From positions 186,001-250,000 of the forward strand of contig CALYLW010000345.1 in assembly GCA_944989445.1 (NCBI GenBank): a DNA stretch of 64,000 nt, written 5' to 3'. Of the stretch, positions 26,701 to 29,700 are shown in pieces (the stretch's first letter is position 1; each line of letters begins with the position of its first letter). Both the position numbers and the translations under genes were made by a program. This stretch comes from Ampullaceana balthica. Its lineage: Eukaryota; Mollusca; Gastropoda; Lymnaeidae. The notes below the pieces were generated by a model that was given only the letters and a program-made list of their open reading frames with translations, was not told where the DNA came from and did not search any database.

Positions 26701-29700
26701 TAATAAAAACTGCATTGCATGGAATAAATATTTATCAGTAACAATGTTAAATAGTTTATGTTGGTAAAACTGTTGGGAGTGGGGGTGATAAGGCTTTTTT
26801 TAAAAATTATAAATTGTAAGCAAGTTTTTTTCTATCATAGCCTTTTTTTAGTCATGAAAAATATGTTTGACTTTGTTCATCTCTTCTTTTAAGAATGCTA
26901 ATACTGAGCACCATGCCACCACCTGTTTCTTCTGCCATCATACTCACCAAGGCTGTAGGTGGCAATGTGGTATGTACATTTCCTGCATTTTTGTAACATG
27001 AAGATCTTTACCAACAGTTTTATTCCTATTTGTTGTTTTATAATTTTATTGAAAAGAATCATCTTTTGATAAATAATGTTTATTATTTTAACAACATGTC
27101 GTGCAAATATAAATTTTGATATGAAACTATAATAAATTAATACACTTGTATCATAAAATCATATATTTAAACCATCAGGCTGGTGCTCTGTTTAACTCTG
27201 CTTTTGGAAGCATGCTGGTAAGTTTGATTATAATTTAACTCAATTGTTTTCTTAGGTTGATGATCTATGTACATATATTGTGTCACGCATTTAAATAAAA
27301 TGTTAGAATTATAATCTAATACACAAATGATTCAATCAACAGCATAATTTCATAGTTTATAACCTCCCTTGAATTCATTAGTAGTATATCTTAGCACTAT
27401 CCTGTGCAAAATTCGTATTCTTGTGTGTCTGTTTATTTGTATGATTTGAAGATTAACAATTAACATGGTGTTGTTTTTTTTGTTTTTTTACAGGGCATAT
27501 TTTTGACACCTTCATTAATCATACTGATTGTAAGTATGTCATAAAAATTTATTTTTGTTGTTGTTGTTTTTTTTAATTTTAATTAAATATTGTCACCTTG
27601 AAGACAGAACTTGAAGATTAGGTTATATTAATTGATGCTGCTGATAAAATAGAATTTAAATTCCAGTTAAGTATGTTCATTGAAACTTTTCTATTATCTT
27701 CACTAATGAAAACTAATGTACCAATGCACCTTGGAGGAATAAAACCATATTATATGCAAAACTAAAAATGTGAATGCACAATGAGTTAAAATTCAGACTA
27801 ACTCTTCATGATTCTTTCTCAGATTATTGATAACAAATACAAAATGTTGCTGTTGCTGGACAAGTAGCTCATATAATGTATTTTTACCTTTATCTGCCTC
27901 GAAAATATGTTGTTTGCGTTTTATCATAACCACCAAACATCTATTCTAATTTTGTACTTCTATTCAACTTTATGCAAAAGTTAACTCTATACCTAGTTTT
28001 ATGAGGCCGATTTTCAACTCATTTTATTTTCAGCTTGGCTCATCAGAAGTGAATGTGCCATCAGAGCATATCTTCAAACAGCTTTTTGTGACAGTTGTTG
28101 TTCCTCTAGTCATAGGGCAGATCTTTAGAAATTACTTTATAAGATGGCTGCAGCGGCAGAACATTCCATTTGACACCATAGGCCAGTAAGAGGAAATTTT
28201 GGCAAGATTTTTTTTACTTCAAATTTTAATAAGAAACTATACTGTTAACACTCACATGGATTTATATTTCTAATTAATGAGCTTTCTTTAGTAAGATGAT
28301 AAGTTAACTAATACTGTAATTTGGTAGTAATAATCCATACCTTCCCACACCTATTTTTGGCAGGTTCTTGATATTTTTCATCATCTACACAACTTTTTGT
28401 GCCACATTCTCCAGAGAGGAGCTAAAGATGGACCCCTCCTCTTTAATTGTTTCAATTTTTCTCAGTGAGTGGTAATTTAAATTTTTGTTAAAAATGTTCT
28501 ATTTTCAATAATGAATCTTTTTTTTTCAATTTAAGAAAATAGTGACAAATTTCTCGTGAAGTGGGAGGGGGTTAAATGTAAATAATTTGTATGCTGAAAA
28601 TATATCTTAACATTTTTTTTAACTAGATGAGAAATATTAAGATGTCCTTTAAAGAGTTGGGTTGTCATTTATTCCTCCTTATAAAATGTGTAGAATTTTC
28701 TTTCAGTGCTTGGTTTACTCCTCACATTGCAAATGATTCTCTTAAACTTGTCCTACCACATATTTCAATACACTGCAAGTGATGCAATAGCTATCGCATT
28801 TGTGGGATCACATAAGAATATAGCATTGGGTAAAATTTAATGAAATGTTTGATTGCTTTCCGTATCTCTTTTTATTTTATTGTGTTTTCAATGATGCAAG
28901 CTTATGTCATTAGTCTCTCAAGTATCAAACTTTCTAAGCCACTTTTGTGGCTCTTAAATATAGTTGGAATTAATGAGGTCAGTAGGTTTCAGCATTAAAA
29001 TAAATTAGCTAATATTTAAAAAATTATAGCACATTATACAAGATTTTCAATATTTTTTATTGTCATAATCACAAAATAATTTTAAGTTTACTGGCAATTT
29101 TTCTCTACAAATTCATGTCTTCATGGTGCAATCAAGGAAGAGCTTGAGAACGTACTGACAAGGCTTATATAAATCAATTGAAATTCTTTTCATCACAATG
29201 ATAATGTTGCTATTTATTTATTTTATTTGTTTGCCATTTTCAGTTGTTTGCCTGCAGTTAGGCATCATGGTTTTTCTTCTGTTGACAAGTTCAGGTTCAT
29301 TGTTTAAATTTGATGGTCCAGATACTACCACGATTGTTTTCTGTGGTACCCATAAGTCCCTCACTCTTGGTAAGTTCTTGTATGATATTACTATATTCTC
29401 TTTGATTTTCTCAATATATTTTTTTTAATGTAATAACTTGTTTCCCTTTTAGTAGTTTCAGAGACATTTAATATTTAAAAATAAATATATAATTTTACTT
29501 TTAAATGTCTCTAAACCTAAGCAATTAGAAAACTGGTAATGTACTTGTGTATAATGTTTAATTACTTCCTTTGCACATACACTTTAATTAATTAATTATG
29601 CTTCTTATTTTTTGTATTTAGTTAAAATATATATTCAACTGGTATAGGTTATATCAGTGGTTCTCAACCCTTTGAGGTCCAAGGACCACTTGAAAAATGT

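Follow-up and report, generated by a model that had tools for sequence, protein, structure and literature searches.

Does the SLC10A7 gene of the snail Ampullaceana balthica carry two interchangeable versions of one exon, and, if so, how old is the pair, how might the choice between them be made, and what would a swap do to the transporter? The question arises from a 64,000-nucleotide stretch of genomic DNA (contig CALYLW010000345.1, positions 186,001 to 250,000; hereafter the window), in which an initial annotation had proposed that two neighboring exons, 9a and 9b, are duplicated and probably mutually exclusive. Its coordinates, lengths, shared phase, and GT-AG borders for the two exons all hold on recheck. 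They lie in an intact SLC10A7 gene on the + strand of the window, in which exons 1 to 8, within 23664-28464, are followed by 9a, 9b, 10, and 11. The gene has twelve exons in total and eleven in any single transcript:

23664-23745, + strand: exon 1, with the start codon; matches the N-terminus of gastropod SLC10A7 proteins
25968-26050, + strand: exon 2, from the SLC10A7 gene model
26231-26367, + strand: exon 3, from the SLC10A7 gene model
26894-26969, + strand: exon 4, with the PPPVSSA motif (P109-A115, invariant in a 45-protein alignment)
27179-27217, + strand: exon 5, from the SLC10A7 gene model
27494-27529, + strand: exon 6, from the SLC10A7 gene model
28034-28185, + strand: exon 7, from the SLC10A7 gene model
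28364-28464, + strand: exon 8, the shared partner upstream of 9a and 9b, from the SLC10A7 gene model
28707-28829, + strand: exon 9a, the alternative helix 8 segment, loop, and broken helix 9; identified by profiles and by its clade with gastropod 9a
28830-29243, + strand: intron between 9a and 9b, 414 bases, GT-AG, U2 type, by splice-site inspection
29244-29369, + strand: exon 9b, the canonical version, from the gene model and profiles
31822-31975, + strand: exon 10, the shared partner downstream of 9a and 9b, from the gene model and a PF13593 match
32771-32801, + strand: exon 11, the last coding exon, with the stop codon; absent from the initial annotation and placed by protein joining

With exon 11 (32771-32801) included, the joined exons give an uninterrupted protein of 337 amino acids with 9a or 338 with 9b, and the protein end that exon 11 supplies resembles, by eye, the Physella C-terminus ...SYRSHV. 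Exon 9a is 123 nt long and 9b 126 nt, which bears out the one-codon difference claimed earlier. Both begin one base into a codon (A/TG in 9a, A/TT in 9b), both end on the first base of a glycine codon that exon 10 completes (G/GA), and each, as had been stated, is free of stops and yields an open protein when joined to exons 8 and 10. The closest protein found was from Lymnaea stagnalis, with 88% identity to the 9a isoform of the window in the full-length search; against the same protein, the 9b segment alone is 95% identical. Most of the named full-length matches are annotated as sodium/bile acid cotransporter 7, the rest being unnamed or hypothetical, and the SBF-like domain PF13593, precomputed for the 120 listed matches, has a match at exon 10 in the window too. 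When the snail's own genome (1.1 Gb, 3363 contigs) was searched with the PF13593 profile exon by exon, and hence insensitively, the SLC10A7 locus was the one match at E <= 0.001.

The window holds several other features. A hAT-like element of 1839 bases (window 29655-31493) sits in the intron between 9b and 10 and makes up about three quarters of it; it ends in inverted sequences (cagtggttctcaacc) and is flanked on either side by an 8-base target duplication, GGTTATAT. Transposon pieces at 19000-22700 lie upstream of SLC10A7 exon 1, outside intron 1. Also upstream of exon 1, at 20442-20780 on the + strand, there is a weak match to DUF659 (E 0.0062, 16.7 bits, under the curated cut-off) that is perhaps a decayed transposase. 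On the minus strand, a reading frame with NHL repeats (7614-8693, E 2.7e-17) has upstream of it a cysteine-rich piece at about 12624-12935 that looks like a RING finger by eye, and the two may possibly be parts of one TRIM-NHL type gene. A reverse-transcriptase domain (RVT_1, 60801-61715, minus strand, E 1.6e-21) marks a retroelement piece.

On both strands of the window there are 2099 stretches of 117-132 nt, in multiples of three, bounded by AG and GT, and 199 of them are open in the phase of exon 9. Scored with a profile of 14 SLC10A7 proteins from outside the gastropods, 9b reached 49.2 bits and 9a 23.5 bits (E 6.1e-7) among these 199, with the next stretch at 6.3. The same profile run on 2837 six-frame stop-to-stop segments returned 45.5 and 22.8, and then 7.2 bits. 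When the profile came from 11 further 9b rows, with nine named gastropods among them, the 199 stretches were headed by 9b at 79.8 bits and 9a at 34.8, followed by two stretches overlapping 9b (22.7 and 18.3) and then by 8.6. Adjacency, same phase, similar length, and homology, the marks of mutually exclusive homologous exons, are thus all found in this pair. The two are by no means near copies, with 14 of 42 residues identical between them. A profile of 9a from the other four species scored window 9a at 52.9 bits and window 9b at 41.9, while the 11-row 9b profile scored window 9b at 75.9 and window 9a at 34.5; judged by these scores, the cross-matching is class-specific.

A search with the full-length 9a isoform scored 7997 proteins, of which 841 were at E <= 0.001 and 120 were listed. 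Among the best 20 of the 841, 13 have the 9b type, five the 9a type, two neither, and none both, so that in the predicted isoforms of other gastropods the two exons are used as alternatives, with the 9a type occupying the place of 9b. The RefSeq and UniProt isoforms in these counts are predictions. Carriers of the 9a type in that set are Aplysia isoform X1, Physella isoform X2, Elysia marginata, and two Biomphalaria records, and the proteins with neither exon are Aplysia X4 and Biomphalaria P0020. Both forms are recorded, as predicted isoforms among these 20 matches, for Aplysia, Physella, and Biomphalaria; Elysia marginata has the 9a form only, and 9b-type records only were found for Lymnaea stagnalis, Bulinus, Elysia crispata, E. 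chlorotica, Plakobranchus, Bradybaena, and Candidula. A conserved 9a, which had been named as a check on the proposal, is therefore present at the protein level in four other genera. The five 9a copies (from the window and from those four genera) are free of stops, and all are shorter than 9b by one or two codons. Region searches added little. One with window 9a covered 133 candidates and gave no match at E <= 10; it was insensitive, since the known 9a proteins were missed as well. Another, with a composite query, covered 203 candidates and gave four matches, each one a protein from which the query had been made, with no further gastropod carrier.

In a tree of the exon 9 segment, built on 43 columns and flagged by the tool for its few columns and for the long branches of Biomphalaria and Physella 9a, the five 9a rows form one clade, with support of 94/94 in 33 rows including a dog isoform discussed below and 99/96 in the 32 rows without it. 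AU tests, with groups chosen after the first tree was seen, asked whether the 9a of each lineage could be placed with its own 9b. A separate duplication was rejected in three groups, with p 0.016 for lymnaeids, 0.0095 for Aplysia, and 0.0009 for sacoglossans; it was borderline for planorbids (0.048) and not rejected for Physella (0.062). Aplysia belongs to Aplysiida, while Elysia (Sacoglossa) and the lymnaeids (Hygrophila) both fall within Panpulmonata; Physella and Biomphalaria we take to lie within these gastropod lineages. Because 9a is shared across species and forms one clade, the duplication would be older than the split of these euthyneuran lineages. For this sample of euthyneuran gastropods, a single duplication of exon 9 before they split appears to be the simplest account.

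The two copies have not changed at the same pace. Over six species pairs from four lineages, between-species identity is 0.24-0.50 for 9a, 0.40-0.65 for 9b, and 0.55-0.68 for the rest of the protein; the identities of 9a are below those of 9b, and 9a has therefore evolved faster, a divergence that would also fit relaxed constraint. Within 9a, the helix-9 half (28-67%) is better preserved than the helix-8 half (22-38%). All five 9a copies retain the invariant lysine at column 38 and the final glycine at column 43, and four retain the histidine. When 27 non-9a rows (13 of 9b type and 14 others) were compared with the five 9a rows, five columns separated the classes, with the canonical letter in 25-27 of the 27 and a change in at least four of the five. 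Gln5, present in every non-9a row, is L in four 9a rows; Cys34 (25/27) is V, V, V, V, and T; Thr36 (26/27) is S in four; Ser39 (27/27) is N in four; and Thr41 (27/27) is A, T, N, I, and A. Four of these five columns flank the invariant lysine of the HK helix break, the crossing motif. At column 9 of the segment, all 13 rows of 9b type have Met, and the same four 9a copies that lose Gln5 have Q, Q, Q, or H, which looks like the displacement of a polar residue by one helical turn.

What these residues might do can be approached through the fold. Models of the two Aplysia isoforms, with mean pLDDT of 85.5 and 84.6, show the SLC10 fold with a broken crossing helix and align with bacterial bile-acid symporters at best E values of 1.6e-10 and 3.3e-10 (target-length TM-score up to 0.89 and 0.88); helix 9 breaks at HK-N in the 9a form and at HK-S in the 9b form. 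In the bacterial symporter, we take the Glu and Gln of helix 9 to be sodium ligands. When scallop SLC10A7 is aligned pairwise with the Yersinia symporter, a weak overall match of about 28 bits that has no gaps in helix 9, Cys34 is set on Glu254, the residue altered in entry 4n7x, and Lys38 on Gln. Columns 34 and 38 are Cys and Lys in 9b and Val and Lys in window 9a, against Glu and Gln in the Yersinia protein. Since SLC10A7 has Cys and Lys instead of Glu and Gln, the sodium site of the ASBT/NTCP type would be missing, though the fold is common to both. By this alignment, 9a is a further change at the very position of Glu254. The earlier suggestion that the crossing helix contributes to the cation site is strengthened here, as the most consistent difference between 9a and 9b aligns with Glu254.

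Deletions in the human protein bear on the same segment. From the splice mutations in PMC7190670, human exon 9 can be placed at c.722-773, with exon 10 starting from c.774. Human exon 9 begins one base into codon 241, the same column and phase as the start of snail exon 9, and the single snail exon 9 appears to correspond to human exons 9 plus 10. As described in that source, human constructs without exon 9, exon 10, or both did not inhibit calcium influx (PMC7190670). The segment therefore matters, and for the same reason the predicted snail isoforms that lack both exons are likely inactive.

How a choice between the exons would be made is suggested by the splice sites. The initial annotation had called both sets good, and this stands for the GT-AG borders and for the pyrimidine content of the 9a acceptor (12 of 20, with 11-17 at other acceptors). 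It does not stand for the 9a donor, the weakest of the gene's 11, with three of seven consensus positions in a simple seven-position count (five in 9b), or for the AG-free zone before the 9a acceptor, which at 11 bases is the gene's shortest, the others being 20-122. Frame is kept to the end of exon 10 with both exons or with neither, and therefore enforces no choice, as had been recognized; both lengths are multiples of three. Incompatibility of U12 and U2 sites finds no support, as every SLC10A7 intron starts with GT and ends with AG and no U12 donor occurs in the gene, nor does steric or distant-branch-point exclusion, given a 414-base intron and an AG-free zone of 79. The search for competing RNA pairings that had been proposed found none among the flanking introns that beat shuffled sequence: for the best pairings of five intron pairs in this one species, 18, 57, 38, 34, and 55 of 60 shuffles were as low. 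A plain count of a few short splicing-factor motifs gives scattered matches in the introns. As two predicted isoforms lack both exons, exclusion is not absolute. The likeliest route of choice would be regulated recognition of the weak 9a, with 9b as the default.

We consider it probable, with a good margin of confidence, that the duplicated exon 9 has been kept as a pair of alternatives in which weak-site 9a is a regulated substitute that retunes the cation/substrate site or its regulation. A tandem duplication of exon 9 would have preceded the separation of Aplysiida from Panpulmonata, and both copies would have been retained as alternative exons. With its stronger splice sites and canonical sequence, 9b would be the default; splicing factors would act on the weak sites of 9a, the regulated substitute. 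Exon 9a is predicted to preserve the fold and the invariant lysine but to alter the helix 8 segment and the point at which broken helix 9 crosses, so a swap from 9b to 9a would retune the ion/substrate site or its regulation and leave the protein undestroyed. Common to sea hare, sea slug, and other snails, 9a probably serves to tune the transporter. For Ampullaceana balthica itself, we infer that 9a is used.

Other readings of the same observations need to be weighed. Exon 9a may be a real alternative exon whose isoform is inactive or dominant-negative, so that its inclusion, like skipping, turns SLC10A7 down with selectivity unchanged. The altered near-invariant residues at the crossing point, the faster evolution of 9a, the predicted isoforms without both exons in Aplysia and Biomphalaria, and the inactivation of the human protein by loss of the segment, as described in PMC7190670, would all suit such an off-switch. 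We nevertheless regard it as unlikely, because the lysine and last glycine persist in every 9a copy and the histidine in four of five, the length shifts by only one or two residues, and the fold is intact in the Aplysia 9a model; moreover, an off-switch would need no homologous segment of 41-42 residues when skipping would be enough.

If 9a were a decaying duplicate, spliced in rarely and by accident, the gene's weakest donor and shortest AG-free zone would be expected, as would fast evolution and the long end branches of Biomphalaria and Physella 9a. Neutral decay over such a span, however, would be expected to leave stops, and 9a is open in five species, including members of Aplysiida, Sacoglossa, and Hygrophila, with a shared class-specific motif, which makes decay quite improbable. 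A duplication that is recent, or made by the assembly of this genome, has the adjacency of 9a and 9b in its favor and nothing more. It is hardly credible: the two share only 14 of 42 residues, the 9a segment is found in other genera, and window 9a groups with the 9a of other species and not with window 9b (AU p 0.016). Retention as regulated alternatives is thus the reading we carry forward.

One mammalian record resembles the snail case. Predicted isoform X15 of dog SLC10A7 (P0065) has an alternative crossing helix that differs from the dog canonical form in 12 segment columns; these include each of the four helix-9 columns diagnostic of 9a, where it shares S, N, and A with window 9a. It is like snail 9a in that the same crossing helix is altered in a similar way around HK (non-Cys, S, N, A). 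It is unlike 9a in being a single predicted record and in departing from the canonical form only from segment column 21 on, so that the helix 9 part alone is replaced. An Asn after HK occurs in five of 118 retrieved motif-bearing proteins, namely four gastropod 9a records and dog X15, and an X15-like helix was absent from every other mammal in the 120 listed proteins and in the matches of the composite-query region search. In the 33-row tree on all columns, X15 and the canonical dog form group together. The record may reflect an artefact of prediction, or else a second duplication that arose by convergence. A broader proposal, that SLC10A7 is splice-switchable and that its cation or substrate site has been exchanged through exon duplication more than once, in euthyneuran gastropods and in a mammal, strikes us as doubtful; on that proposal, convergence would have replaced THKSLTLG with a crossing motif like SHKN-(I/L)-A-L-G, which we offer as speculation.

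Exon pairs of this kind are known from other genes. Substitution of tandem homologous exons is described as old, as overrepresented in ion transport, as set within secondary structure, and as including convergent cases across phyla (PMC9741552, PMC5740500), and 9a and 9b resemble those exons in adjacency, equal phase, and near-equal length; SLC10A7 is absent from the main text of both papers. In NKCC2 (SLC12A1), the alternative exon 4 variants A, B, and F give a solute carrier different versions of a single transmembrane helix, and they specify ion affinity, as shown by mutagenesis (PMC7818487). NKCC2 differs in being another solute carrier with three variants and a mutagenesis-proven effect, whereas the effect of the 9a/9b swap is a predicted one. 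Exons 6a and 6e of COQ-2 are mutually exclusive homologous exons, in molluscs among others, that remodel a protein core, but in an enzyme rather than a transporter and with the switch tested in C. elegans (PMC7434440). Exons 4a and 4b of OGDH are also ancient duplicates and give calcium-sensitive and calcium-insensitive forms; their exclusion is attributed to distant branch points (PMC7969005), of which the AG-free zone in the snail gene gives no sign. The kind is thus already known, both as homologous tandem exons and, in NKCC2, as a helix swap that sets ion affinity, while the SLC10A7 case appears undescribed: no description of an alternative homologous exon 9 in SLC10A7 was found in the literature searched, which left subscription papers largely outside.

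For SLC10A7 itself, published accounts report that mutations cause skeletal dysplasia with enamel defects and that loss disturbs secretory-pathway calcium and glycosylation; they class the protein as an orphan carrier and call its exact cellular role undetermined. Two ancient, naturally occurring isoforms that diverge in one crossing-helix segment alone would be a ready-made probe of that helix's function, and whichever activity differs between 9a and 9b would point to the crossing helix's job. Lymnaea, Aplysia, and Biomphalaria are laboratory animals, and the tissue use of 9a, for example in the shell-forming mantle or in neurons, would be readable from their RNA data.
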